Source of the DNA: Pohlia nutans
Taxonomy: Eukaryota; Streptophyta; Bryopsida; Bryales; Mniaceae
DNA length: 64,000 bases
Assembly: GCA_022496805.1 (NCBI GenBank)
Contig: CM040085.1
Location: 43,863,811 to 43,927,810, forward strand
Direction: 5' to 3'
Shown: positions 1 to 58,757 of the stretch, piece after piece
Position numbering within the stretch: the stretch's first letter is position 1
Layout: each line of letters starts with the position of its first letter
Program-made: the position numbers and the translations under genes
Notes under the pieces: generated by a model
Told to the model about the DNA's origin: nothing
The model's input: only the letters and a program-made list of their open reading frames with translations
Database searches by the model: none

Positions 1-241
1 TTGATGTTGAGTTCAATGAAGTGCCGCCGGTCGGGGACGATGGCTTCCCACCTCGTGACAACGAAGGTAGCGATGACGGAATGGAGGACAATAACGACCC
101 TATGGAATCAAGCGGGACAGCGATGAACATCAACGACCCTAGTGGCATAGTCTTGGATACCCTTTTACACGAAGCAAATACTCCGCTTTATGCAGGGAGC
201 TCTTCCAACCGTCTCACCTCCATACTCATGATACTTGTGTG
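1..241 (+). pseudogene. CACTA TNP2-like transposase, N-terminal fragment before insertion
   Basis: The frame starting at base 3 is open through the window edge. It reads through an acidic stretch into ANTPLYAGSSSNRLTSILMI, the conserved N-terminal block of TNP2-like CACTA transposases. In that family this block is followed by a C-x-x-(F/H)-G-V-S-N segment. Here the frame runs instead into GC-rich inverted-repeat sequence of the inserted MULE. The missing continuation is found at 14006, and the junction carries an 11-bp target duplication (231-241 and 13995-14005). Confidence 0.85.
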
Positions 242-294
242 GACGAGGATAGTATGCGCGCGGGGAGCGGGGAGCGGTGAGCAGTGAGCGGAGA
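242..294 (+). repeat. Left terminal inverted repeat of the MULE
   Basis: The core at 272-294 (beginning GAGCGGTGAGCA) matches the reverse complement of 13955-13977 at 22 of 23 positions. The outer 30 bases are only weakly similar to the other end. Such short, partly degenerate TIRs are known among plant MULEs. Confidence 0.8.
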
Positions 295-782
295 AATGTG
301 GGATTACGAGCAAGAATTTTAGGTCAACCGTGGTCTACGACACTATAATTAGTAAATATTCGAATATTCGTTTATTTTTAGTAATTTTTTGGACCTATGA
401 CTGTGGAATATTTGGTACCTATTACCGTGGGTTAGGGTCAGTGGTTCAGGAATAAAGGCACATGTAAGGCACACTCTGTCTCTATAACCGAGGTAATTAG
501 ACCCAAATCTGCGGTTTAGGGTAAAAAGAGATTGTTATTTCAGCGTCTTATTAGGGGCTAATCCACTGGTTTGGACGAAATTATTTCAAATTCATAGCAA
601 GTTTAGCGTTTAGACCAGTTTGAATACAAAATAGAAAAAATACCAGAGTTTAAGGTTTAGGGTTTCATAAATAATATAACATGATTTTCAAAACTGCAGT
701 AGTGGCCCTTTTAGTCTCACTACAATTTCATTGATTTGGAGAGTGAACATGTCAACAATTGAACTAACAACATTGAAGAATC
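295..782. other. Non-coding subterminal region of the MULE
   Basis: No open reading frame, RNA gene or clear repeat is seen. The stretch is AT-rich, contains a telomere-like TTTAGGGTTT word near 650, and probably holds the 3' region of the transposase gene. Confidence 0.5.
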
Positions 783-3700
783 CTAGGATGTTGAATGAGT
801 CAACAATCCACTCTCAAGAACTAGCTTAACTTCGTTGAAGCTAAGAGTGGGCGCATGTATGAAGGCATCTACATCAACATCAAACCCACAAACGACCGTG
901 AAGACAAAATAGAGATGTTTGCAGTGAGCCCATTGCTTGCGTCCTCCCTTTTCCTTGGTCACCATCTCCTTGAAATAAGGGCAGGAGCAGTCTGGAAACT
1001 GGGAAATTGTAAGAAAGTACTGCTGATTTGTCGGAGGCGTGCCTGAATCCAACGTGACGATGCAACCCAGGGCAGGGACCGGAACCATGTCCACCTTCCT
1101 TATGCAACCCTTGAATGCTGCAGCGCTAGCACAGTTGTTGGCTTGCTTGATGGATGGGCTCTTCTTGTTGCGGCGGACATTCTTGCCATGACGTTGCTTG
1201 GGAACTTCAGCAGGGAAAGCTGGAGTAATATATGTTGACAAGTCGACGGGGAGACGGTGATCTAGGAGGAGCCTTCGCGGCGATATGACCTCGCGTTGTG
1301 GATGTTGAAAGCCAGCATTTTCTAGGGCAAGTATCTCCTTGCGTGTTAGGTTAGTACCGTTCTTCACAGACCAGATGTCCGGGACCTCAGGGCGGGACAT
1401 AATCCACTTTCTGCGGGTTCCTTTGACACACCTCTCGATGTCGTCGTTGCAGAAGAAGAATTGCATGCGCTCCTTGTGATTCTTCTTGTAGTTGTCCATC
1501 ATGCCCGTGTACGTAGGAGCAGCGGTAGATTTCCCGTCTTGTATGATTCGAGCGATGCACTTTTGCTTAGTCACAGCCTGCTGCGCGAAACATGCCTTTG
1601 CACATGGGGCTTTTAGCCTAGCTATGTGCCACTGACTCTCGTCGCAAGCCGTTTCTTGCACGGAAGTAACGTGGTGTAGAGCTGCTGCTCGGGTTGCTTC
1701 TTGAACCTGCACTAGTACATCAGACTTCTCTAGTTCTAGGGCAGAGACTGACAGCTCCACAGAAGAAGAATTTAGGTTTAGGGTGTTCCTTGCACCCCTG
1801 GTCTGGACTCGAGGACAAGAGATGCTGATCTTGTCACGTCTGTGAGAGTCATACTCCGAACCGATGGGAACGTCTGCTTTCCGCTTCAACGACATGAAGA
1901 CTTCTTCTCCTTCGAGTTGAGGCATTCGAGTGCAAAACTCCTCCGCTCCAGGCATCTTCGCTAATGCTTCGTGTAGGGATTTCGAGTTCCCCGTGCGCTC
2001 TGTAGACTTCTGTGCAATCCGGAGTTTCAGTTCTTCTTTGGTAGGGCCAGTTCCAGCTCTATCTCCCTTGAGGTATTGGTAGTACGCGACGCTCTGCATG
2101 AAGGATCGGATGAAGTCATCCACAGTAGCGACAAACAGGTCTGATCCTCGATCATCAGATTGCGGTTTCCATTTGTTGTGGATACTTTCTGCTAAGTTGC
2201 AAGAGGGCATTTCGGCCAACTCGTCCTCAGTGAGGTCCTATTATATAAAAAGCAATGCACATTTAGAGTTAGTAGTTGTAGTGAGGAGAACAAGCAATGG
2301 CATGGACTTAGGGTTTAGAGTTTAGGGTTTTGGAGCTTACAAGTTGCATGAAGCCTCCCCACTCGCGGTATCGAAAATGCCAAAAGGCTAGCCATAGGTC
2401 GAGATGCCTCAATCCATCTTCAGCAGTAGCTCCGGAGGAGTGCCACCAAGCTCGGATACCAAGATAGCAAGAATCTGCCTCCGCTTGCGTCGAGGCGTTC
2501 TTGTATTGCTTGCAGAGCATGCGATGTTGGTCTTGGAGGTCAGCTTTGATGTCAGCCTTCGTGTGCTTCTCCAATGACTGCACCCAATGGAAGAGACATG
2601 TTCGCTCTTTATTAAGCATTGGGATTAAAACATCTCCACTCCCGTACACAATGCGTACAACATTCCAGTTTGCTTGGGCGCTGTCTGCCATGAAGCCCTT
2701 GAAGTTTGGATCTTGAAGTCCGTGGCGAGCGACGACGGCATTGAGATTCTTCCAAACGACCATTTGAGCTACGACGTCTTCCGACTGCATATCGCACAAC
2801 GCAATGGTCATAACACGGCAATAAGTGGGGTCGTAAACATGGCAGCCCATGGTTGTCCACTGTTTCACCCTCTTCATATGATCGAACATGAGCCATGCGT
2901 TTTGCAGGTCTCCACCAGGCTGCATTTGCTTCACAAGGTCAACTCCGCTACCGGGACCACTCTCTGGCATTTTGAAGACGAAGACCTTGTCCGACTCCGA
3001 TCCTTGACCAGGGAACTTATTCTCGTGGACAAATGGCCAGTTGCTGGAGCCGCGAAGCTTGGTGATGCTATCCATGATACCGAACCTTCGGAAGTACTTG
3101 AAGCCTGTCACCTTGTTGCGAATGTTGGGGGAGGCCAACTCCTTGCATCTGTCAAAGAGCGGCAGGAGGTCATCGAGTTCAAGAGTTTTTGATTCTGCAC
3201 CTTCGGCTGCCACAAGCATATCCCCAACCATCTCTTTTGTTGCCTCTAAGACGATCGCAGACTTGGTTGTAGAAGGAGTTCGGTGCACGTGCTCCTCCTC
3301 CAAACTCTCGCCTATGGCAATATCGTCTTGGTAAGCCCCGACTTTGACAGGGTGGTCGTGAGTTCCAAAATGAACACAAGCTCGAGTCATGTTGTTTTTA
3401 TCTAGGACGTAATATATTTTCGCATCGCAGGTTGCAAGACAAGAGGGAAGAACTTTACAGCATTTGCAAACAAGAGTGGAGCCCTTGGGAGGATTTGATC
3501 CCACGTCCAAAACAAAAGAAGATACTCCATCCCACTTAGTTTCGTTAACAACTGTTGTGCGGTGAACATGGGTTAGAAAATCGCAGTCGACATTTTCACA
3601 TTGTAAATGACCACAACAAGAGGAGGTACGGAATATCAACCCAAAATCATTGACAATGTTGGACGTGTGAGTACGAGTCCACACATGCCCATCATAGTGT

Positions 3701-4413
3701 TTGTCCATGCCACGGAGTTGCTTCGCTTTGTTGGATCCTGAAGAGGATCCCAACGGAGGGAACTCAAAGATGACATCGCCATTGTACTAGGGCGGCAAGA
3801 ACTCTACTCGCTTGACAGAGGTAGAGTTGTAGTCAAATTTTTTGAAGATATTCCTAGAACCCTTCCTAGCAAATAGCAATTTCAAGCACTCTACGACACT
3901 TTGTTTTGGTGACAGAGAAAGCGGTGTAGGTTGCTTACTAGTGGAAGGACAACTGCCTGCAGAAGATTGGGGATTAGGCTGAGAAGGAGGAAAGATAGGA
4001 TCGTGTTCTACATTCTCTGGGACTTCATCGTCACTAAGTTCATAGATCGTCTCTAAACCTGGCTCAATTTTCACTCGACCTAGCATAGTGGTTTGCATAG
4101 TGCAAGTCGATGACTCCCTTGGAGTCAAGAGTTCGGTAGATGCACCCATAAGGCAATCGGATAGACCGTAAGCTCTATACCTACCTGCCTTAAGCAACCA
4201 CACTCTTCTATCTTCAGTAGTGGTTGGGAGTTGCCTAACGGTGTGCGTAAGTAGACCAGACTCAGCATCGAATACCTCTTCATCAACGTGCACCGTTGCT
4301 GCAAGAATCTGAAACGTTAAACTAAGACTGAACGCAGAGACAACTGCTACTCCATTGTCCCCTAGCGGGAACGAAGTAGGGACGCCTGCTCCTTCGACAC
4401 GAATGAGTGCCAT
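783..4413 (-). pseudogene. MULE transposase, two exons, one in-frame TAG
   Basis: Coding runs 4413-2341, then an intron (2340-2238; donor GTAAGC, acceptor ATAG), then 2237-783. About 1165 codons are in one phase. The N-terminal 208 residues lack a recognised domain. Then comes a WRKY-GCM1/FLYWCH-like zinc finger (CCGHLQCENVDC ... CKCC ... HFGTHDHP) and a MULE DDE core. Its probable first two acids lie in HVYDPTYCRVMTIALCD and FMADSAQANW, and the third near EDELAEMPSCNLAESIHNKW, which crosses the intron and so confirms it. The protein ends with a SWIM zinc finger (CSCPYFK ... HCKH). A single TAG at 3787-3789 separates the first 208 codons from the rest in the same frame; a CAG-to-TAG change would explain it. 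Translation from 3753 alone would need a non-ATG start. This copy is therefore probably inactive unless the stop is read through or spliced out. Confidence 0.85.
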
Positions 4414-4497
4414 GGTCTACTCTTGGAGAAGTGTAAATTCAAGACATTCAATGCAATCCGGAATGAGAGTGAGCATTTGGGAAATGGGTGCTTAAAT

Positions 4498-4590
4498 CTA
4501 GATGTGTGTTTCTGGATCCCTAAACTCTAAATCTAGATGTGTGTTTCTAGAACACTAAACCCTTAAACCTAGATGTGCGTTTCTGTAGAC
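4498..4590. repeat. Three 35-36 bp direct repeats upstream of the MULE transposase
   Basis: CTAGATGTGTGTTTCT recurs at 4498, 4533 and 4569, with partly conserved CTAAAC spacers. The repeats lie 85-180 bp before the transposase ATG, so they could be promoter elements or transposase-binding sites. That role is inferred from position only. Confidence 0.6.
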
Positions 4591-4941
4591 AGATATAATT
4601 GTAGGGTGCAACTGTTGCCTTCGGAAAACCACTGGGATTGGAAGTAGCCGTCTTAACTCTGACAGATATCTAAAAATAATTGCATGGATGCTGCACAATG
4701 AGCATGATGGCAAGTTGATACTAATGTCTGCTCTCAGGATTAGACTCTCTTAAAGAATGAATGATTCTTACCTCAATATTAGGCGCTAATTGATTTGAAT
4801 TTCCTATGTCAGTCTACCTTTACGGTCGCCAAGTTGACTGCAAGCTGCATTCTATCAATAGTAATTATTCAAAACAGAAGTCATAAATTGCTAGTGCCGG
4901 TTCAAAGCTGTTAACTGCTTGAACGATGAGAGTTCTTCATT

Positions 4942-7935
4942 ATGCCTAGAGGAGCCCAGATGAGAAGACGAAAGAGTAGTCTCAGGTTTAGTAGTAGAAA
5001 GGAATTGGAGCGAAGCAGGATGTGGATAAGGCGTGGGAAATCTCAGAAATCTGCCCAGGAGGACACTGCAAGAGTCTTGGATTATGGCAAACTTGTCAGT
5101 GAGCGCGAGTTGGAGATGATTCTAGAGACAAACTTCGAGACGCCCAGACAAAAGCCTCCACTACAAAGCGATCAACTAGACATTTGTGGAGACGAGGAAA
5201 GTGATTCAGAGGAAGAGTCGCATGATGTGGAGGTAACATTGTCTTTTTTATGTAAGCAGTCTGAGCTATAATTTTCCGTCTTCATGTAAACTCCAATGAG
5301 ACTAAGATTTGTATGTTTTCTATGGAGCTCCCAGTCTACCGTGCAAAACACTGTTGCTGAATCTCAGCAACCGAATAATATCCCCCCACCAACGACATCA
5401 GCAGCACCAATTCAGAAGGTACCCTATCTCATTCAAACGCTATCTCATCGTAAACACTAGTTCATTCATTAGATCTTGGTACCGAGAGGGTTCTGAGAGT
5501 CTGATTGGGATTCCAGTGAACTAGGGTTTATACTGCAGGAGGGTTTATCTTGGTACCGAGGAGGTACTCTGGTGCACTCTACGAACAATCTGAATTTTAA
5601 AGCACGAGGTTATGGCTTGATCAAGTTATGGCTTGAACAAGGTTATGGCTTGGTTTTTTTTAATTGGTTAGATCTGGAACTAATCAATACGCTTTACATA
5701 TTTTGCAATTCTTTTATGGTTGGTGTTAAGGAATCGTCGACGCTTCAACTAGGACTGAAAATAAGATTCGGAAACAATTATTGGTTATTTAATACAGCAA
5801 GCATGCTACACAGACAGAGTGTGTACAGAAGCTTAGTCAGGTGAAAAGTTTTATCGAGGATGTTATGGCTTGGATTCAATTCGAAGGTTAGTGTGGCTGT
5901 TGCCATTATTGTATTTGTTGATGTGTCTAATATTAGTTACTTCTTTGTTGTTGAAGAGTCTTTTAGATTATATGAATGTAATAGCTAGTGTTGTTGTTCT
6001 TGCTTTTTTTGGGTTGTTAGGTCTTTTTTGTTCATGGGAGCCACCATGTTGCCATATGGCTTAGTTTACTCACCTAGTCACTTTAGAATTGAGGCTTAGC
6101 TTTAGACTATGTGTAGGTGTAAAACCACTAAGGGCCACTTCATACTATGGCCAAAGGTCGAGAGGCAGTCGATTTCTTTTCATAAAAAATAGAGTTATCC
6201 GTAAAGTCCATCAAATTTTGAAGAAGCTAGATACCATGAATTTTTCTTTATTATACTCTTATTTGTTCACTCCAAAGAGATGAAAGGTGTGAAAGATCTT
6301 GGTGGTTTATCATTATTAGATGTGTAAGAGGCGTGTAAGAGCTTGGTGGTTTTTTAAAGTTTTCAAGAGTTTTTTAGAGATAAATAATCTCCCACAAATC
6401 AAGAATGGTGCTAAAAAACTTTTGAAGACCACCGAGCTCTTATACACCTCTTAGACATCCAATAATGATAAACCACCAAGGTCTTTCATACCTTTTATCT
6501 ATTTGGAGTGAATGAATAAGAATATAATGAAGCAAAATTCATGGTATCTAGCTTCTTCAAAATTTGATGGACTTTACGGATAACTCCAAGGGTGAAATCC
6601 TAGGGAAATTAATCAAGAAGAGTAAATCGGCACATAAATATATTCTTGAGGTTTTCTTTAACTTGTGAAAGTTGATTCTTGTTACAAACGATTAGATCAA
6701 TTAACTAAGAACATAATTACTTCCATAAAAGGACACAACGTCTTTAGCTTCAACTTGTGCTGGTCTAATTTAGAAATTCTGCATGCCTCACATGAGTCTT
6801 GCTGGTCACTGAGACTTGCTATTCCTGCACAAGTGATTCAAAAACTTTCAACGTTAACATGCCAGCTTACCAGCATGCCAGCACCGTCATTTACCTTAAA
6901 CCTAAACACTATACGTCAAAGAAGTAGAATCGACGATCGAGTTTCACGATCGGTGATGAGCCTGAGCTTGCAGGCGCAGGCAAAAACCGTTTAGCTTAGT
7001 GAGTGCTCGAGGCTGAGAGCGCTGTAGACGTCATATGCATTGGTTTTGCCTGTTCGAAGTGCAAAGTGCGGCCGCGAACGATGAGCTCGGCCCAGCCAGC
7101 CAGCTTTGTTGCGAGGGACGACGTTGCTAGCCCAACGAGCAAGCAGCAGCAGCCCTACACCGCGGCCACTACTACCATTGCTTTCTAAGCCAAGTGGTGA
7201 GTTTCTGTTTGTTTGACTTTCATTGATGAGTTTCATTGAAAGGTGCGTCAGCAGATTCTCAACGTTTTGAACGAGTGGGGTCAAGGCATCCTCGTTGACG
7301 AGGGACGCTTCATAGGGTGGTTTTCTTTTGATAACGCTAGGCTCGAACTAGTGGTCACAGGGCACCCTCGTTGACGAGGGTTCCGGGTAAGGGAGCTTCT
7401 TTTGTATCTTTCCGTAATTTGTGTCATTAATCTATCAATCTCTTGTAATGAATATGTCTTTAGTGAAGCCAATGGGCTCCAGTTCAAGCTACTTCAGAAG
7501 CATACGTTAATGTTGATCTCACTGCTTCCTTTCGATTATTGTTTTAATATTCATTCTCACATTTGTGATAGCAGGCTGGCTATCATCTTTTGCATGCTTT
7601 TCTTATTGTTGAGGTTCTCACTTTTATCTGATGCTCCTGCTATCTCTGATGTGTATTTGCAGGCAGATGTGCAAGCTGTGAAGGAAGCTCTTAACTCAGC
7701 AGTAGATGCACTGAATGCGGTTGAAGGATCTGTGCAATTCTTTTCACCGAAGGTGAGACTATTGTTAAAAGAATTTACGTTTGAACATTCTTTTCTGGTG
7801 TGTAGAATCTTGTTTTGAATCTTGTATGCCTTCTTTGGTGGGAATCGGCAGTTCGTTAGCAAGTCGTCTAGAAATCGGGACAAGAACCAAATTGCTGAAA
7901 TTGCGATATGTCTGGGGGAGAAGAACCGCCTCTAA
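4942..7935 (+). CDS. Small four-exon gene of the MULE, unknown function
   Basis: I do not recognise this protein. A model with four phase-0 exons fits perfect GT-AG signals: 4942-5232, 5335-5418, 7663-7752 and 7852-7935 (182 residues, then TAA). The N-terminus is strongly basic (MRRRKSSLRFSSRKELERSR). An acidic patch follows (GDEESDSEEESHD), then a P/Q/T-rich linker, then a predicted helix (ADVQAVKEALNSAVDALNAV) and a basic tail. The basic start and helical end would suit a small nuclear or DNA-binding accessory protein, but no known motif supports that. It is read towards the methyltransferase gene and divergently from the transposase. Intron 2 (2.2 kb) holds MITE-like insertions. The exons could instead belong to two genes, since a separate short ATG frame starts at 7081. 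Confidence 0.45.
5419..6131. other. Intron 2 of the small MULE gene, AT-rich
   Basis: Short TATGGCTTG(A/G) direct repeats occur at about 5600-5655. Otherwise no coding or repeat feature is seen. Several open frames here have no recognisable content. Confidence 0.4.
6132..6190 (+). repeat. Truncated Harbinger-like MITE end
   Basis: GGGCCACTTCATACTATGG followed by a GTCGAGAGGC motif matches the ends and interior of the complete MITE at 22698-23060. No matching right end is found before the hairpin at 6193, so only one end survives. Confidence 0.5.
6193..6585. repeat. 393-bp fold-back element, long near-perfect hairpin
   Basis: The left arm (about 6193-6385) begins AGTTATCCGTAAAGTCCATC and the right arm is its reverse complement, ending at 6585. 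The arms match closely along roughly 190 bp with a very short loop. The element lies in the plus-strand intron of the small MULE gene, so transcription would make a long double-stranded hairpin, a plausible substrate for Dicer-like processing. No clear target duplication is seen. Confidence 0.75.
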
Positions 7936-8858
7936 CTAGCTCAAAATCCAAAACTGGAAGGCAAGTTATAGGTCGTCCTTTTCAAGGGTCTTAACACCGT
8001 GGGTCTTTTCAAAAGCTCTATTATATCATGTGGCTGCTTGTGCATCACAGCACTCGGTAGGGCAGTGTGACTGAGGTTCAAAGAATCTCTTACTTATTTT
8101 CGCACAAGCTTAGCATAGAGTCGTAGTACATCTTGTCTAGATTCGGGGAATTAATATAGATTTGGAATTATTTGATAGATGTGGTTGACTGTCTGAATGT
8201 CTATTTTGGTTTTTCAGAGGGGCCTCCATCTACCCTCGTTTCCGAGGGTCCTCTATATGAACAATTTATTTTGAATCAATTGCAAATAATAAATAATATT
8301 TAAATATTTTTACAATTCACTACCATGTCTATCGCATCTGTCTAGTTGTTGTCGAGGGGTCTTAATGCACCCTCGGTGTCGAGGATCATCTCCTAGGCTA
8401 TTTTTTATTCATTTATTGTATTCATATATTTTTAAATTTTATGTTTCAATGACTCTTTCAATTTTATTGATCTTTAAGAGGGGATTCTAGGTACCCTCGT
8501 TGTCGAGGGTCTTCTACAAGTGTACTTTTTAACTATTTTTTGAGATCTATTATATTATTCAACAATTATTATAGTAACCTTTGAAATTATTATATCGTCT
8601 ATTGCGTTTGCTTTAATATTGGGACGGGCTCCCAAGGCACCCTCGTTATCGAGGGTCATCTTCGAGGGTGTTCATTTTTCAAAACCGTATGTTCTGTTTT
8701 TGCAGGTTACTTTTAACTCAATTTATGAAGCAAGGTATATTTTGAGATCTATTGTATTATTCAACAATTATTATATTTACTTTTGAAATTATGATATCGT
8801 CTACTGCGTCTGCCTTAATATTGGGAGGGGCTCCCAAGGCACCCTCGTTATCGAGGGT
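7290..8858. repeat. Seven copies of an ACCCTCGTTNNCGAGGGT palindrome
   Basis: Copies lie at 7290-7303 (core only), 7364-7381, 8232-8249, 8369-8386 (diverged), 8493-8510, 8639-8656 and 8841-8858. Each can fold into a CCCTCG/CGAGGG hairpin with a 4-6 base loop. Half-sites (GTCGAGGGG, TTCGAGGGTG) lie beside several copies. The array fills the region immediately before the ParB/methyltransferase-like gene. Apart from the 200-bp duplication noted separately, the intervening sequence is not repeated, so the motif is conserved beyond its surroundings. Confidence 0.85.
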
Positions 8859-8942
8859 CCTCTCCGAGGGTGTTCATTTTTCAAAATGTATGTTCTCTTT
8901 TTGCAGGTTGCTTTTAACTTAATTTATGAGGCAAGGTATATA
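8540..8942 (+). repeat. Tandem duplication of about 200 bp containing an exon-like segment
   Basis: Sequence from about 8540 (GAGATCTATTATATTATTCA) is repeated from about 8739. Each copy includes one palindrome and a 29-base segment flanked by TTTTTGCAG and GTATAT (8706-8734 and 8907-8935) that could encode V-(A/T)-F-N-(L/S)-I-Y-E-A. The segment may be a duplicated 5' exon of the downstream gene, but I cannot join it in phase to the next coding block. Confidence 0.7.
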
Positions 8943-9024
8943 TTGAAATGTTGCAATATATATTGCAATATTGAATGAGCATGCTTGCTCTCCACAGAAG
9001 GATTGATACTCTAATGGTGGTAAA

Positions 9025-12000
9025 ATGACAACATTTAATGCTAGGTTGGGTTGTTCTAATTTCCATGCTTTTATGTCCTTGAAGGATTTGATGATGGGAG
9101 ATGTTTCCATGATGGAGAGGGAGGCTTCTGAGAGCTTGGAGGCATTGGAAAATGATACTGTTGATACTCCAGTGTCAATTGAAGTAGCGGAAGATGACAT
9201 TCGATCAAAGCAGAATTATAATTTTGCGGCGTTGATAAATTCATTGCTCATCTTGCCATTGGAGAAATCTCGCACGAAAATTCCTTTGTGTCGGATGACA
9301 AAGATGCTTTTTGTAAGGCCAAGTCTAAAAACGGATATTGAGAAGTTGGAGGCTGACTTCCTAAATGGATATCGCGAAGGGAATAGGGTGTTTTATGTAT
9401 CCATGTTCTATGCAAAAGGAATTGTGCTTGAAGTATCAGAAGTGGAGAAGGCTACTTGGGATCCTATATGGGTTGTCGGGAATGAGAGATTTGAACGACT
9501 CCTTTTATCCGACCCTAATTTAGCAATGTTTTCAAACAAAATGTTTTTCGTTTGGGATGGGAATCACAGACTGCGGGCTTGGATGAATGTCATTGGTGCG
9601 AAGCATTCTGATTAACCGTCATGGCATTACTCAGTAGATTCCATTTGCCTTGATCCAAAGGAGAGTGCAGGCCTCCTCTTGGATGCTATGCAAAGTATTA
9701 ATGAGTAAGTCTATTTGGTTTTGACTATCCATTCATTTGGCTAATATGAACTTCGAAAGATTTTAATTTTTTTTGGGTTTGTATTTGCAACTCTGTTGAA
9801 AATTCTCATGTCAAGACAAATCTTGTCCATACTCTTCACCGCATTAGCTACTATGGGCAGCGTCCACTAGAAAGCTATCGCACACTAATATCTCCAGAGA
9901 GCTATGCTCGATGTGAGAAGAGGACAAAATCATTTTGGTTTCCTCTGATTGCTGATGTTTTTATGACTTTTCTATTTAAGGTGAGATATCTCCATTCACT
10001 AATGAGTTCTCTTTATTCACATTTGTTATTATAATATTGTAGCATTTGATGATCTGATTTTCTATGTAGAGGGAAATTAGTGCCGCATCAGATGAGGCAG
10101 CTCGGATTTACAAAGAAAATACGCCATTGGAGAGAGGAGTTCTAAAGCACTATCTGAAGTGATGCACAGTGCGGCTATGAGTACCACTAAGGGACTTGTA
10201 AAGCGGTTCGAGAAATAGTCTGCTGTTGCAGATCCTGCGCTCCAGGATTTCTTGAACAGGTTTTATTTTCACTCATTTTTATGATTGATTATGAACTTAT
10301 TCTTATGATTGATAAGTAGAACTTTGAAAGAATTTTAAAATAAAATTGACTTAAACTTTGAAATTGCCTATGGCAGGTGCAAGCGCATTACAATGTTTAT
10401 TCAAAACCAGAAATGCATTTGGACAAGCTCCAAAGCATTGCAACAGCAGAGATTGAATCTGCATATAAAGTACGATGGCTACGTTGGTGGAATTCTAGTA
10501 CCATGAACAAGTTAGCTATAAAGTTTCCAAAGGCACGAGTTGCACCCGTTTCTCTTTTACCATGGTTGAATCGGGCTTCATTCTATGCTGGTGTAAGTGT
10601 TCACTTCATTTTCACTCACATGGTTTTTGGCTTTATAATATCTTTCGATTTATTCAATAAAATTATAATGTTATTTTTTTTGAATGTTCAGTTGGAGGAA
10701 ATGGCAATGAAAGAATTCAATTCAATTGTTGAGAGTAACAATATTACTATTGTCACGACTGGAGAGGAGCCAGATTCATTGGAAAATTATCTAGAGAAAT
10801 GGAGAATTCTTCTTTGGGGCAACGCTTATAAGCCATTTTTCATTGGACAAAAAGGTTTTCTCAAATCGACCTATGAGGGGAGTGAATTGGCTATGAAACG
10901 GCTCCTTTACAGGTATTCTAACTCATAAGGCCGAATTCAACATTTTGAGACGTTTCGCAATTTGGAGACGGAATGTTAGTTATTCAAATTTTTTTTTTAA
11001 AAACTAATCATTGAAACCGAAGAAATATATTGGTCAAATAGTGATTCTATAATGAAATGCTAAAAGTTGATGTTCTTACCTATTTATAAAAAATATACTA
11101 GTAAAGAGATAAAACGGTTTATTTTCGAGTCGAAAATAAAAATGGGACTGCAAAGAGTCTCAATATAATGAATATAACCTTTCATGTAGATTAATTCATT
11201 GAAGTAATTCCAATCGATTGTATGTTTTGTTCTGACACTTATTCAATGCATTAACTCAATTCAACAAAATATGTAGGTACTTCAAGAGGCATTTGCTCCC
11301 ACTAAAGGCAATTCAAAAAAGGGACATGCCAAAAAATTTCGATTCTTGGGTTGATAAGAATTCTGAGAGTTGTATCTACACCCCTGCACAATTGAAGAAA
11401 TTTAGTCTTCCTCATCTGCAAAATTGGGGCATGGTACTTGGAGTGTGGTGGTCAGTTTATTCCAGTTTATTCCAGTGAAGATTCTCTCTTTATTTCAATC
11501 AACAATGCATCTTCTCAAGAAGATGTTGCTCGAGTACTTGATGATTCCGATGAAGATGTTCAAGCTGTAGCTTCTAAAGATGTTCCATTGACAACCAAAG
11601 AGGCAAAGAAAGCGCAGCGTGTGGCACTAAAGGAGGCTCGTAGGGCTGAGAAGGTCATAGCAAAGGAATCGGCTAAAGCTGAAAGGGCAACAAAAAAAGC
11701 ATCGAAATCTGTACCTTCATATACTCAAGAGTTTCCTACTTTGACATGTACAAGTTCTTCTAAATCACCTCCCTATATTGAGAAGCTTCCAAGAGATCAA
11801 GATCATTCTACTCTTGTTTCACACATTATCAATGCTACTCAAAATCTATTCTTGTTGGCAAGGCTCAAATGAACGAATCTAAGGAGGATGATGACATTGA
11901 GGTATTGATTTTGAATGATTCAATTACAAAATTGAATGTTGAACTGCTTCATGATGGCTCTAAGCGTCCCGAACACAAGTTAGCCTTTGATTTCATATCT

Positions 12001-13616
12001 AAAGTGAGTATTCATTTATGTTTAGGCAACGTGTTGGCATTTTGTTGATGATTTTTTAATGAATGAATTATATCTAATATTAAGTTTGATGGTGTATAGG
12101 TTGGACAAGGTCGTACAAAGATGTTTGAGGGCTTGCGAGTGACTTCAGATACACGTGCTGCTATCGATCTTCTCATTGCCGATGTACCAGAGGACTTACC
12201 CGTGCCTGGGATTTCTAAACCAGCCAATTTTGTTCCATCATGGAATATGTGGCCTGAATCATATTTCTATGATATTTTTGAGGTTGCAGATGAAAATATT
12301 CACGATGATGGGGCGTTTCTTCTTTTCTATCCAGATAATGTTCAATTGAGAGTAGAGATTGCTGGGGTTTGCACTACTTTTCACTTCAAGTTATACACAG
12401 ATTGGTGGGGTTTCAATTCACTTCCGTTGGTATCTTCTTCAGATCCAACATGCACGGTACATATTTGAATTGTCATGTATTTTTTTAATCACTTTCATGC
12501 CATGTTGTCATCAAATTCCTCATGTTCACTGCATGCTCTGTATTGCTCAGACAAAGTGCTTTTGGACTGCTTTATTGGTCTGCCAATATCCTCGAAATTC
12601 TCTAGCAAAGCAATCTGCATTCTCATTTAGGTCAAATCCTGAATTACTTGATGTTGGGATTAATCTAAATGACAATGGAATCGTACACAACTACACGGAT
12701 CACGAGTCTTTGACAATGAATGGAAGTAATCCATGGAGAGGGCCTCGTCAAAAGCATCTCTGCCTACTTCAACAATTCATTGAAACTTGCACAACACCAG
12801 GCGATGTTGTTGTGGACTTCTCTGCATCGACTGGTTAGTCATTGCATGTATTTTATTTTTTGTCTTTATTAATTGTTTTCTTGATTATTCTAGTACATAT
12901 AAATTCATTTTTAACAACTGCAATCAATGTTTATTTTCCAGGTGCAGCTACTCAAGCTTGCCTCAACTCTGGTAGAAACTACTTTGGGTTTGAAGACGAT
13001 GAGGCTATCTTCAAGGTTGTTCTAGAACCTCTTATAACTGTGAAGACTCCACTTATGACATCCAAAGATGTGGATAAACCGGTGGCCAAAAAAGATCTTC
13101 AAGGAGGATTTGAAGATGTTGCGAGGATGATTCAGCCTCCAAAGCGTCGAAAGCACAACAAGTAAGTGCATGTAAGTGACCTACTCAATTAATTCTATAC
13201 TTTTTGGTCATTTTCCTCTTTCCAAATTTCAATTTGCACATAATTACATGGTAATGTTTTTTTGTTGTTGATTTATTCTTCATACTATGTCAATGTTATC
13301 ATCTCATGACTATTGTGCATGTTTATATTTTAGATGTACCGAGGAATTTTTATCGCCTAAACGTCCATTTTTTGGACGTGCTGATTTCTATCCAAGCCCA
13401 CCACAGTTGTATTGTCTTCTTCCTTATATTGAACCACTTGCTTCTGTCCTAGCTAGACAGCCACCATCTCCAAAAAATCAACGTAGTCCAGCAATAGAGA
13501 ATAATAGTACAATGCCATTTGTTGACGATTTTGCTACAGAAGCTAGTACAGATTCATCTGATAGTGAATGTGATGAACCACGTGGTATTGATCTTAGCAG
13601 TGATTCAGAATTATAG
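9025..13616 (+). pseudogene. ParB-like domain fused to beta-class N4/N6 DNA methyltransferase-like protein (MULE-borne)
   Basis: Exon blocks are 9025-9704, 9791-9980, 10070-10259, 10378-10592, 10692-10912, 11277-12003, 12100-12456, 12551-12833, 12942-13161 and 13334-13616. The first block holds a ParB/Srx-like signature (FFVWDGNHRLRAW). The middle is helical, with a Lys/Ala coiled-coil-like stretch (TTKEAKKAQRVALKEARRAE). The last third matches N4/N6 methyltransferases in beta-class order: a motif IV-like IDLLIADVPEDLP, then QKHLCLLQQFIE, then a SAM-binding motif I-like GDVVVDFSASTGAATQ and NYFGFEDDEAIF. A Ser/Asp-rich tail ends the protein. Catalytic DPPY/W is DVPE and FxGxG is SASTG, so activity is doubtful. 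Breaks: TAA at 9613, splice acceptor AG changed to AA at 9789-9790, a frameshift and TAG in the third block, a 10-bp tandem duplication at 11453-11472, and a frameshift near 11850. The methyltransferase end itself is open. The start could lie further upstream. Confidence 0.75.
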
Positions 13617-13954
13617 TTATTTTGATTTGTGGGAGATTATTTATCTTTTCCATCTTTTGATGGTTTTCTTGTTGATTTGTTTTCTTTCCATTCATATTTA
13701 TAATGAGGTGAGACTAAAAGAGCCACTACCTACATATTAGCTATTGCAAATTGATGAATTTATCAAATGCTTTGAATGTTTTCATTGTTTTGAAGCTTTT
13801 GAATGTTTTTACTACGCGGGAACAAGTCCTTCAAGGCACGGCAATAGGTCCTTTTATTACATGCATTAACTTAAATTTTTTTTATTACACTCTGAAACCA
13901 CAGTACGTAATAGGAGGTGCTTCATAAAAAAAATTGCAGAATTTTTTTCCAAAA

Positions 13955-13994
13955 TCTCCGCTCATTGCTCACCGCTCACATAATAGCATTTCCC
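13955..13994 (-). repeat. Right terminal inverted repeat of the MULE
   Basis: Reverse complement of the left core with one mismatch (13955-13977), followed by a weakly conserved outer segment to 13994 and then the second copy of the target duplication. Confidence 0.8.
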
Positions 13995-15131
13995 ATATTT
14001 GTGTGTTGCACCACTTTTGGCGTATCAAACAACTTTGTGGACGAGTTGTTGAAGTTATTGCAGGAGTCAATATTGCCCAAGGGCAACACGCTTCCGAAAA
14101 CATTTCACGAAGCGAAGTGTTTGTTGATGAAATTGGGGTTGTCCTACAACTCCATACATGCGTGTAGAGATGGGTGTTGTTTATTTCGGAAAGAATTGGA
14201 AGATGCAACGGAGGGCCCAATATGCCACAAATCTCGATACGTAGACAACTCCAAAACAATACCGGTCAAAGTATTGAGACATTTTCCGTTGATCCCTCGT
14301 TTGCGAAGAATGTACAGTTGCACACGGCTAGCGGAGCTCATGAAGTGGCACGTGGACGGAAAGAGCAAGGACAAGGTGATGAGATCCGTGGTTGACTCAA
14401 AGGCATGGAATCACGTGAATAGTACATGGCCGGAGTTTGCAAAAGAAGGACGTAACGTTCGGCTAGGCTTGGCACTAGATGGCGTGAACCCATTCCGGAA
14501 CCAAAGTCTTAGCCACTCGACGTGGCCCGTGGTCATGCTAAACTACAATCTCCCCCCTTGGCTAGTGACCAAAAACTTCTTTATGATGCTCACGCTACTA
14601 ATACCCGGAAAAGAAAGTGTGACGGACAAGAATGTGGATGTGTATCTGGCACCATTAATAGAGGAGCTGCAAGAGCTATGGGAAGGGACCGATTGCGTGG
14701 ATGGATCGCAAAAAAACTCCGGCGACAAAACATTCAAGCTACGAGGTATGCTATTGTGGACAGTGAACGATTTTCCGGCATACGGATTGATTTCTGGCCA
14801 AGTCACGAAAGAACACAAGGCGTGTCCCGTGTGTGGCCCCAACGTAGTAACTCGGCGCTCGAAAGCACTAAAGAAGAATGTGTACCTTGGGCATAGACGG
14901 CATTTGCCGATGGCGCACCAATGGAGGCGACAAAGGGCCAATTTTGATAGCCAACCCGACATGCGACCTCCACCACGAAGGATGAGCGGTCGAGAGCACT
15001 TGGCGTTTGCGAATGCTCGAGAAGAATGGACAAGCAAGATCCATGCGAATGAAAGACCACAAACGCCGGACCCTGTACATGAACACGGAGTGAAGAGAAG
15101 GACATGTCTTTTTGACCTTCCCTATTGGAAA

Positions 15132-22550: not shown

Positions 22551-22697
22551 TTAAAGGCCCAACCAACTCCTATGGGATTGATGGATGATTGTTTTCATTC
22601 ATATCACCTTCCTCATGAACCTCTTCACCATGAAACATTTTTTAGAGATACTTCATCAAGTTGCTGTCCTATCCAACAGTTGGATTTGGTGTTATTA

Positions 22698-23060
22698 GGA
22701 CCGCTTCACACTATGGCCGAAGGTCGAGAGGCCGTCGATTTCCACCAATCGGATTGCAAGAAACCAAGAGTTCGGCCTCTCGACCCTTCACACTAGAGGC
22801 CAAAGTCCAAAGGCCATCGCCCTCCAAAATGTTTACATGGCAACACTTTTTGACCAAGGCAATGGCCTCTCGAAAGGAAGTTTGGGTCGGACGGGAATGG
22901 AAACCCAAACTATAGTCGAGAGGCCGTCGATTTCTTTTCATAAAAAATGAAAACTAGATTTTATTGCCTATTTTCAACCCATTTCTTTGGACTCTCAACA
23001 AAGTTTAGCCACTCAATCTCACGGCCTCTCAACTTGGACGACCATAGTGTGAAGTGTCCC
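22698..23060. mobile_element. Harbinger-type MITE with TTA duplication
   Basis: The left end GGACCGCTTCACACTATGG and the right end, GGGACACTTCACACTATGG on the minus strand, are inverted repeats flanked by TTA on both sides (22695-22697 and 23061-23063). Internal copies of a GTCGAGAGGCC(G/A) motif alternate in orientation. The element is 363 bp and non-coding. Confidence 0.8.
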
Positions 23061-54940: not shown

Positions 54941-57900
54941 ATGTGGCCATATGGAAGGGGACGGGCTGTGCCTCATGCAGCTCAAAATCTCACAGTCTAC
55001 AATTCGGGAGGATACTCACAAAACCCAATCTACTCGACCTATATGCCCTATACACCCAATCCACCTTACTTGCAGCAAGAGCCGATTGGATACATGACTT
55101 ATCCTCCCTATCCACAACACTCCCAACAAGAGATTGGATATACGACCTATGCGCCCTATCCAGTGTATTCACAACAAGAGATTGGAGCCCGTTTGTCACA
55201 AGATCCAATGGCTAATGATATGATTCTCCGGGACCGAAATTGGCCCTTCCAAAACCACTACAAGTGCGCTTTATTGATATTAATGTTTTAATTTCATAAT
55301 CAAGAATTATTTGCAAATCATTTTCCAAAGGATATTTTTGAATATCTGATTTAGCGTTGTGAATGAAGAGTACAGGAGGGAGACAATGCCAGAATATAGG
55401 AACGGGGAGGTGGTGATGGTGAGGTGCAACCAACACAAATGGCTTCCAGGTGTGATCCAAAGGATGTCGGCACAAGGGGTGTGCATTTGGATCACTGATG
55501 CCAACATCTTAGTGAATGTTCCGCTTATACTCTTGCCCACACATGTTGTTAAGATGTCAGTGTACTCGGAGTTTGGGACCTTGCCACAAGTCGAGCCAGT
55601 GTGGACAACTACAGACAATGGAGGTTATCGGAAAGTGTTGGTGCAATGTGTGCCTCCTGCACACTTTTCTCATCGCCAGCTCTTCCATGCGTTGGAAAAT
55701 AATATATGCGCCATCTGCAAGTAAGTTGTTGAATAGACAAATATTAACACAAACCACTCAAAGTTATGGATTTTGGAATGAATTTTCTTAAACAAGTTAA
55801 TTAACGTCGTTTAATAATTTTATTTGTTAAATCCTCGTGAAGAACATTGAAAAATCCTCCCATAACACGTAAACTGTGGTGATTTTGTACTAGTGAAAGT
55901 ATCAGAAGCCTACCTTCTTCAACGTTTTACAAAATATAGATTACGTGAAATTTCAATAGAAAAGTTGTTGGTGCAGAAATTCGTTGTCGAACATGATTGA
56001 CGTGGTGAGCCCATGGAATTGCCGTCACCAAGTCCACAATTATTGCTTGCAGTTTCAAATGCAACAAAGTTCTACGGCTACCTGTCTTTCTTGCAACGAC
56101 AATGCTTCTCGTGAGCGCATGCACTTGGCATCCTCTAGTAATGCATTTGCCAGTTCAAGCAATGGACAACAACGTTGGTTCGATCTCCAATGTGCTTGTG
56201 GATTTAGAACCGCAATCGTTGGCGTTGGCAATATGGAGGCGCCCATGTTTTGCCCTAATTGTCAACAACGTGTGAACGTAAATCCCATGCAAGGTAGTGC
56301 AAGCATTAATGTTAATCCAACAACAGTCTCAATGCAAAGTGGTGAGCCTCGAAGATGCCTAATTCTAAATCCAAAAACTATGAGAATGCAAAGTGCAAGC
56401 ACAAACATTCCACGCGCTTACTCGGAGCCTGAAAGAGAACTTCCTCAGAGTTTAGATTCTTCAGAGGCTTCTCAGAGCTTAAATTCCTCAGAGGATTCTC
56501 ATAGCTTTGAATCTCCCGAGATTTTTGAGAGAGAGGGGTTCTTCAATGCTCAAGATTTTGGATCGGGGTGGCCTACGCAATCATTCAATGGTCCCAATAG
56601 GTAATCACCATCACTCCAGTTATACTTTTTCTTAGAATTTTTAAAAACTTAGCGAATTTGTTCATTGAGTGTTATGTTTTGATATACGCAGACTAGAAGC
56701 AATTGAAGAAGGTCGAGAAGGTTCTGAACCAAATTTGTCGTTGGAACCACATGCATTAGACGAATCGCCCTCCTACTTACCTTCTTATCTAGAGGCTCTT
56801 CGTGAGACTTTTGAAAACAACAACATATCTGATAACAATGTTGTTGCGATGAGGCCTGTTGACCAAGATATACAACCACCTTCTAGTTCTCGAAGCTCGT
56901 GGCATGATGGACCATACTATGAACCGTTTCGTAATCAAAGTACCATAATTCAAAACAACGAATATTCCAGTTCTCATAGTTCGCTACAAGATGACATATT
57001 GTATGAACCTTCTCGAAAAACTACTTTGATTCAAAACAAACAATATTTGAATTCTGAAAGTCTATTGCAAGATGGCTCATTAGAAGCAGCTTCGCCTTCA
57101 TCAGCTACTCTAATGAAAATTGAGCAATCCATTTCTCAAAGTTCGTTGCAGCGCGGCTCAATAGGTGCACCTTCCATTGCTCCAACCTCTCTAATTCAAA
57201 ACGAGCAATCAAGAGAAAATGCGTCTAGTCCGCTTGTAGCACCTACACTTGCATCTCGTGTGAACCTTGAGCCAAAAAAATTATCCGCATCTACATTTGT
57301 TGTTTTCTTTCTTTCACAAGTACAATAATTGACAAAAATGTCTACCGGTACTTAGTTCATTACTACCTTGCATACTAATCTTTTGTTAATCTTATGTAGA
57401 TGAAGTAACGGAGAAAGTAGAGATGGAAAAGACGACCGTTACAGCTCCTGAAGGGTACAATTTATGGAAGAGGGCAAGTGAACCAGACACAAGCATTGTG
57501 GCTATTGAAGGGCCGAAAATATGGAAGAGGGCGAGCGAACCCAACACAACCATTGCGGTTCCTGAAGTGCAAACATTATTGAAGAGGGCGAGTGAACCAA
57601 AAACAGCCATTGGAGTTCCTGAAGTGCAAAAATTAGTGATGAAGGCGAGTGAACCAAATACAACACTTGCAATTGCTGAAAGGCCAGAAGTACTGAAGAA
57701 GGCAAATGAATCAAACACAACCATTGCAGCTACAGAAGCTCGGAATCTGAGGGCGAGCGAACCAAGCACAACTGCTGCGGTACCTGAAGTGCAAAAAGTA
57801 TTGAAGAAGGCGAATGAACCAAACCAAACCATTGTGGTTCCTGAAGTGCAGAAATTATTGAAAGGGGTGAGTGAACCAAACACAATCATTGCAGGTACAG

Positions 57901-58757
57901 AAGATCGGAAATTCTCGAAGAGGCCAAACGCAACCATTGCTGTTCCTGAAGTGCATAAATTATTGCACGTGGCGAGTGACACAAACACAACCATTGCAGC
58001 CACAAAAGATCAGAAAGCATGGAAGAGAGCGAGTGAACCAAACACAACCCTTGCGGTTATTGAAGGGCAAAAAGCATTGAAGAGGGCGAGTGAACCAGAC
58101 ACGACCCATGCATCAACCAACGATCAAAGATTATGGAAGAGGGCGAGTAAAGCAATTGCAGCTCCTGAAGGGCAGCGATTCTGGAGGAGAGCAAGTGAGG
58201 TAAACTGGACTGACGAGGCTGAGAGTGGAGACACAGAGCGAGCGAGCTCATCCAATGATTTCGCGGCATCCTCTTCCAGTGCAGCCCCAGTGTATATGAA
58301 CCACTTCGATGAAGGCCAAAAATCATGGAGGAGGCCAAGCGCAGTAGACTGGACTAAAGAACAAGGGAATGATGAGGAGAGCGAACAAACGATCACTCCA
58401 AGCACTGCCCCAACGTACATCAACCACTTCGCTGATTTTGTGAAACTAGCCATGGCAGGATCTTCAACTGCCAAAGATATCATTGCAAGTGCATCCCCAG
58501 CACCATCATCGCCATCAACCTCTAACCCTCCTCCATTGGAATCCGGAACTTCTGTATGGGTCACACCACCTCCTGCCTTCTTCACACGAGCCTCAGCCTT
58601 GTTCACAGAGGCCGCTCCTGCCTGGGTCACCCTCAGCAAGGACCGGGACCAAGCGGATTGGATCACCGTGATCAAAGACGGCATCGATTCTCGAAAGGAC
58701 GACAAACGAGGGGAGTTGGAAAGATTGGCCAGGGTTAAAGACTCCGAGTTTTTGTGA
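54941..58757 (+). CDS. RING-H2 zinc-finger protein with C-terminal 19-residue repeats
   Basis: Exons 54941-55263, 55355-55720, 55977-56600, 56692 to about 57250-57320, and 57400-58757. Introns 1-3 have GT-AG ends and keep one frame. The donor of exon 4 is uncertain: the best-looking GTACAA at 57320 is out of phase, and CGTGTGAAC near 57260 is in phase. Order: a Y/P-rich start (repeated PY-(P/x)-Q-(H/Y)-SQQEIG), an SH3/Tudor-like segment (GEVVMVRCNQHKWLPGVIQR), then a RING-H2 finger whose ligands span introns 2-3: CAIC, 15 residues, C-R-H-Q-V-H-N-Y-C, 12 residues, CLSC. A CxC ... CPNC zinc ribbon, a Ser-rich region and about 14 repeats (LWKRASEPNTTIAVPEVQK-like) follow. RING-H2 proteins are normally E3 ubiquitin ligases, so that role is inferred; the repeats are unfamiliar. 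The ATG at 54941 follows no clear upstream coding, but a 5' exon is possible. Confidence 0.65.
57465..58190 (+). repeat. Coding minisatellite, 57-bp unit
   Basis: About fourteen degenerate units encode (L/I)-(W/L)-K-(R/K)-A-(S/N)-E-P-N-T-T-I-A-(V/A)-(P/T)-E-(V/D)-Q-K. Alternate units end in PEVQK or in TE(D/A)RK/IEGQK, suggesting a higher-order pair. Some units have lost 1-5 codons but never the frame, which argues for selection on the protein. Confidence 0.85.

Follow-up and report, generated by a model that had tools for sequence, protein, structure and literature searches.

ParB-methyltransferase (ParB-MTase) fusion proteins are known as accessory proteins of algal transposons. In Ectocarpus, the element Sola1-1_Ec32 encodes such a protein of 1104 aa, and similar proteins are stated for transposons of green and red algae (PMC12477816, with reference to Iyer et al., 2011 and to Petroll et al., 2025). 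It was suggested that such a protein binds the element encoding it and modifies it; the available text does not name a binding site (PMC12477816). Elsewhere, retrotransposons of dinoflagellates and charophytes acquired cytosine DNA methyltransferases, for which self-methylation was proposed (PMC5890265), and methyltransferases were found in Mariner elements of viruses (PMC3627910). In Arabidopsis, VANDAL elements encode a second protein, VANC, whose targets are fast-diverging noncoding tandem repeats of its own element (PMC10398659). The 64-kb stretch of DNA analysed here (the window) carries at positions 242-13994 a decayed Mutator/IS256-type DNA transposon, inserted in the tnp2 gene of a CACTA element. 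It encodes a transposase and, divergently, a ParB-MTase, with an array of short palindromes between the two genes.

Like Sola1-1_Ec32, the window element encodes, on the opposite strand to its transposase, a single long protein with both a ParB-like domain and an N4C/N6A-type methyltransferase. Unlike it, the transposase is of the Mutator/IS256 type rather than Sola, and the host has telomere repeats of the TTTAGGG type; a palindrome array is not mentioned for Sola1-1_Ec32 in the available text of PMC12477816. As with VANDAL/VANC (PMC10398659), a second protein is encoded by the element. VANC binding was, however, established experimentally, whereas binding by the ParB-MTase is proposed, and its ParB and methyltransferase domains set the present protein apart. 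We liken the ParB-MTase to VANC in its way of working and do not class it as VANC. VANDALs are Mutator-like elements (MULEs) of the non-TIR kind; the element here has terminal inverted repeats (TIRs). The carriage of a DNA methyltransferase by a mobile element is shared with the retrotransposons of PMC5890265, in which the enzymes are C5-cytosine methyltransferases of host origin, shown to be active, whereas here a predicted, bacterial-type N6/N4 fold is carried by a DNA transposon. Finally, unlike bacterial ParB-parS and phage ParB/DNA methylase proteins, the gene here is eukaryotic, with introns, and its product is a putative DNA binder. The window palindrome differs in sequence from parS.

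The ends of the element and the related inverted repeats are as follows.

231..241, no strand: left target-site duplication (TSD) ATACTTGTGTG, from the sequence
242..294 (core 272-294), + strand: left TIR, from the inverted-repeat search
699..720, + strand: left arm of an inner inverted repeat, GTAGTGGCCCTTTTAGTCTCAC (95% pair)
13708..13729, - strand: right arm of the inner inverted repeat (95% pair)
13955..13994 (core 13955-13977), - strand: right TIR, ending in GGGAAATGC, from the inverted-repeat search
13995..14005, no strand: right TSD ATATTTGTGTG, from the sequence

The element splits a CACTA transposase gene, one half of which lies in each flank (Pfam Transposase_21, E = 1.4e-72; DUF4218, 6.4e-39; DUF4216, 5.9e-8). 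When the halves are rejoined with the TSD counted once, a single open tnp2 frame runs through ...LTSILMILVCCTTFGVSNNF... across the empty site. The TSD measures 11 bp with one mismatch, within the 8-11 bp range printed for MULEs (PMC6446971). Of the 23 positions of the TIR core GAGCGGTGAGCAGTGAGCGGAGA, 22 agree with the partner core (0.00 expected from 100 shuffles), and no further copy is present in the 64 kb at up to three mismatches; 23 bp is short for a MULE. The inner inverted repeat, found at only two places in the window at up to four mismatches, has its arms about 457 bp and 265 bp from the respective ends of the element and spans both of its halves.

Two divergent genes occupy most of the interval.

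783..4416, - strand: transposase gene, frames 4416-3787 and 3786-2308, then one intron, then 2237-783 (reading and predicted fold)
9025..9705, + strand: ParB-MTase gene, exon with the ParB/sulfiredoxin-fold domain and its DGNHRxxAW box (79 homologues; fold of the relative P0121)
9810..11869, + strand: ParB-MTase gene, middle exons with stops and frame changes (reading; matched in a second copy)
11873..13162, + strand: ParB-MTase gene, N6_N4 methyltransferase domain (PF01555, DpnA)
13335..13616, + strand: ParB-MTase gene, exon for an acidic C-terminal tail (reading only)

The transposase reading contains one in-frame stop, between the frames 4416-3787 and 3786-2308. Its predicted fold is that of a DDE/RNase-H transposase of the Mutator/IS256 type, as expected for a MULE, and is closest to the solved IS256-family ISCth4; a SWIM-like CxC...CxH motif, read by eye only, is present near the C terminus. 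Unlike in ISCth4/Mutator transposases, the 30 family members searched (E ≤ 1) gave no Pfam MULE or SWIM model, and one of them a weak Transposase_mut match (0.18); judged by its sequences, the family is very diverged. Just upstream of the transposase start, at 4491-4585, is a 35-bp tandem repeat with several telomere-like CTAAAC stretches. A scan of genome contigs with the transposase gave one relative, in L001 (CADCWO010000080.1, 1-4101). The MULE transposase gene there looks eukaryotic and has an intron in the corresponding position, and its contig is filed under the uncultured Synechococcales assembly AVDCRST_MAG81. This contig is a probable contamination of that assembly; no ParB half was found on its 4.1 kb. 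Scans of viral contigs with the transposase and the ParB exon, singly and as alignments, gave no relative.

The joined reading of the ParB-MTase gene gives one long protein of ~1130 aa. The ParB fold was predicted on P0121, which is 93% identical to the window exon, and a search with this first exon returned 79 homologous clusters. The full-length protein had no match, probably because of the exon-sized pieces in the database and the length limit of the search. Pfam gave weak matches only for the ParB family (e.g., CB_ParB_C, 0.2, in one member). For three ParB-family proteins, no family was found in PHROGs and no ParB family in NCBIfam, where the one match, DUF896 (0.0065), is due to chance; for the MTase part, methyltransferase families were found in PHROGs and methyltransferase models, all far below their cutoffs, in NCBIfam. 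The MTase domain itself matches PF01555 (N6_N4_Mtase) at 8.9e-7, with 29.5 bits for a cutoff of 26.7, and DpnA at 3e-6 in a search of PDB sequences, in which all nine matches listed are named methylases or methyltransferases.

The first-pass annotation, made from the sequence alone, had described a MULE transposase with a SWIM finger and two other multi-exon genes. The element ends, including the 11-bp TSD with one mismatch and the matching TIR cores, are borne out by the open tnp2 frame over the empty site, and the transposase and the ParB-MTase gene stand, with a DDE fold like that of ISCth4 and a SWIM-like motif lacking a Pfam SWIM match. The supposed third gene falls outside the conserved set.

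4930..5271, + strand: the supposed third gene, an unsupported open frame

This frame has no Pfam match and no counterpart in the second copy described below.

Whether the two genes belong together was decided by a second element in the host genome. The host was sampled with 22 stretches of 10 kb placed blind to content, two of which are chromosome ends with 2,500 N each; the C1 end stretch holds 101 CCCTAAA repeats and the C2 end stretch 7. Another transposase was found in one of the 22 (L012), with 61% identity to that of the window. Around it, in order and on the opposite strand, lie a ParB exon (41% identity), middle exons (28-36%) and MTase exons (39-40%); the transposases share 59% identity in the DDE part and 48% in the C-terminal part. 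This second element covers 32,003 bp (C1:44,973,939-45,005,941). Its TIRs, GGGGAAAGCTTAAGTGCGAGCGGAGAGC on the left and GAGGGTGGCTACCGTGCGAGCGGAGG on the right, match at 17 of 24 positions, and its TSD is a perfect 10 bp, AGTTTGTTAT, again within the MULE range. The ends were located using the TIR style of the window, so the search was not blind; when the rest of the second region was scanned (8,200 x 7,070 position pairs), no pair was as good. The inner inverted repeat has no good match there (best, six mismatches).

The linkage of the transposase with the ParB-MTase is established by this second element. In both elements, as in the algal accessory proteins, a protein with a ParB-like domain and an N6/N4 MTase domain is encoded inside a transposon, opposite the transposase. 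The ParB-MTase gene is therefore element-encoded, since the divergent pair recurs inside a second set of TIRs, like those of the window in style and flanked by a different TSD. This is what the first-pass annotation had proposed: joint recurrence of the two genes, set beforehand as the test, was seen at the one further locus examined, and not methyltransferase homologues lying only away from such TIRs. A comparison of 59 transposase with 33 ParB clusters from ENA (best 120 of 232 transposase clusters) points in the same direction. Two cluster pairs lie on contigs of equal size (7,546 and 555,475 bp), for 0.006 expected above 5 kb under a rough jitter model; these pairs very probably share contigs.

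The second feature common to both copies is the palindrome array. In the window it consists of seven sites, CCCTCG-TTNT-CGAGGG or near variants, at 7289-8857 between the divergent genes.

7289..7304, no strand: palindrome 1, core CTCG-N4-CGAG (palindrome scan)
7365..7380, no strand: palindrome 2 (palindrome scan)
8233..8248, no strand: palindrome 3 (palindrome scan)
8370..8385, no strand: palindrome 4 (palindrome scan)
8494..8509, no strand: palindrome 5 (palindrome scan)
8640..8655, no strand: palindrome 6 (palindrome scan)
8842..8857, no strand: palindrome 7, a copy of palindrome 6 by a 202-bp tandem duplication (palindrome and repeat scan)

The core CTCG-N4-CGAG occurs seven times in the window, always within 7291-8855, where 0.17 would be expected in the window, and palindrome conservation is 0.86 vs 0.35-0.54 in the flanks. 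In the second element an array lies in the same position: CTCGTNNACGAG at up to one mismatch has 34 copies in stretch L025 (0.25 expected), and six further copies in L024, of which five lie past the 3' end of the ParB-MTase gene and the sixth inside it. By comparison, the 22 blind stretches (215 kb) hold two. In the joined second region the CTCG-N4-CGAG core occurs 23 times, 18 of them between the divergent genes, and it was absent from 23 of 26 host stretches. The most frequent perfect 5+4+5 palindrome, sought with no preset motif, is CCTCG/CGAGG in the window element (seven copies) and GCTCG/CGAGC at the second locus (14 copies); the next best has two copies in each case. Neither was present in the 22 blind stretches, in which AT-only palindromes are common. 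Thus, in both copies, a cluster of palindromic sites lies near a parB-like gene, as in ParB-parS systems.

Taken together, a ParB fold, its fusion to an MTase domain and a private array beside the gene point to a protein that addresses the element encoding it. We accordingly favour, with a probability of roughly 0.6, the reading that this decayed Mutator/IS256-type element encodes a divergent transposase and ParB-MTase, whose ParB domain recognises the array palindromes for self-recognition. The palindromes would then be candidate binding sites of the ParB-MTase, recognised as parS is by bacterial ParB. Bacterial ParB proteins load on clustered palindromes, then slide outward. Similarly, the ParB-MTase might load onto the element at the palindromes and act selectively on the DNA of its own element. 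For the MTase domain two roles are conceivable, methylation of adenine or cytosine, or DNA binding as a pseudo-enzyme. The gain would likely be self-recognition, the element promoters, which probably lie at the array, being shielded from host silencing or regulated.

Several points weigh against this proposal. Both copies found are broken, with in-frame stops in the transposase and the ParB of the second element, and the catalytic tetrapeptide is lost in both. Further transposase fragments lie inside the second element, and this nesting complicates it.

L027 7469-8113, L024 3496-4176 and L012 4344-4595, strand not given: three further transposase fragments in the second element (sequence match)

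These fragments are nested or rearranged relatives; the second element is decayed and has probably taken up other elements. Not all core copies of the second locus lie between the divergent genes: three are found past the 3' end of the ParB-MTase gene, one within this gene and one within that of the transposase. The outermost palindrome base is C in one copy and G in the other. The array of the second copy holds a satellite-like, ~1.08-kb higher-order tandem repeat (L025 4052-6788, spacings 388/178/355/161 recurring); because much of the array is tandem duplication, some of it recent, copy number alone is no proof of selection. Co-divergence of transposase and ParB gave r = 0.39 from six comparisons over four co-located pairs. 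Finally, both features are found at two loci only, the motif having first been noticed in the window, and the array might instead serve the transposase or the promoters.

This last point defines the rival that survives best, which we regard as possible though not favoured: the ParB-MTase would be element-encoded, but the palindromes would be sites of the transposase or of a host factor, or a promoter or minisatellite array. The position of the array between divergent start regions in both copies is compatible with this view, as is the tandem duplication of the second array, since such arrays grow without selection. Against it speak a core and a 4-bp spacer common to copies whose proteins are 41-59% identical and whose flanks otherwise differ, and the conservation of the window palindrome above its flanks. 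Moreover, a parB-like gene in bacteria is usually accompanied by neighbouring parS-like palindromes.

An active N6-adenine or N4-cytosine methyltransferase marking the element DNA, for protection or against silencing, appears unlikely. This was the view of the first-pass annotation, and it is close to that printed for Ectocarpus Sola1-1, such proteins being proposed to bind and epigenetically modify their own transposon (PMC12477816). The PF01555 match above cutoff, the names of the nine PDB matches and an ASTG loop kept in both copies argue for it. Motif IV argues against it. In active N6/N4 DNA methyltransferases, the catalytic tetrapeptide is (D/N/S)PP(Y/F/W). Where DPPY is expected, the window protein reads ADVPEDLPVPG, with ADVPEDL aligned to ADPPYNL of CcrM, and the second copy reads ADIPENLPVPG, so that DVPE and DIPE replace the tetrapeptide. 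The MTase domain of the earlier proposal stands, but methylation is uncertain because DPPY is replaced in both copies; the pseudo-enzyme option is considered for the same reason.

Chance capture of a host gene by one MULE copy, in the manner of Pack-MULEs, is very improbable: MULEs do tend to acquire host gene fragments (PMC6446971), and the ParB-MTase gene is broken and its half more A+T-rich than the transposase half, but the same pair and layout recur at the second locus with 41% ParB identity, beside the 79 homologous clusters and the equal-sized contigs of two cluster pairs. Equally remote is the idea of two unrelated nested elements, with a MULE as the left part and an independent ParB-MTase element as the right part, which the difference in G+C (0.476 in 1-4000 vs 0.365 in 8001-12000) could suggest; the outer TIRs and the inner inverted repeat each form a single pair that encloses both halves, and order and orientation are the same in the second element. 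Both explanations were rejected.

If the ParB-MTase does address its own element through the array, a broader and more tentative view may be considered, that of a eukaryotic transposon family with a complete self-recognition module of bacterial descent. It would comprise a ParB-type protein, perhaps loaded with cytidine triphosphate, fused to a diverged methyltransferase, and parS-like arrays between the two promoters of the element, the array sequence co-evolving with the protein. This would be VANC-like self-addressing built from ParB-parS parts, the MTase now being non-catalytic or an altered DNA-modifying reader.

The first-pass annotation knew of no described plant element with this gene set. 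As a kind, the set has a precedent in the algal transposons (PMC12477816), so that the earlier interpretation holds for the element-encoded gene and not for its lack of precedent. In the literature searched, with most subscription papers outside its coverage, neither a ParB-MTase in a Mutator element nor a palindrome array for ParB-MTase proteins was found; what is new within these bounds is the superfamily that carries the gene and the array as a candidate binding site. The array common to two diverged copies offers a concrete candidate site, which turns the suggestion made for the algal proteins into a simple binding test. Furthermore, the host here has telomere repeats of the plant type, and the ParB-MTase accessory protein accompanies a different transposase superfamily. 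Such proteins therefore seem to have been recruited repeatedly, much as VANC-type helpers serve the VANDALs of Arabidopsis.

Rfam and tRNA scans of the window gave no match. One further feature lies inside the element.

6192..6586 (arms 6192-6363/6415-6586), no strand: foldback (MITE-like) host repeat nested in the element, matched in L021 and L016

The 60 bp adjoining this foldback on its left (within 6129-6586) are matched by window positions 22697-22948 and by L009. Outside the element, the window carries at 57390-58757 a long open frame of degenerate ~38-residue repeats (KRASEPNTTIA-like).

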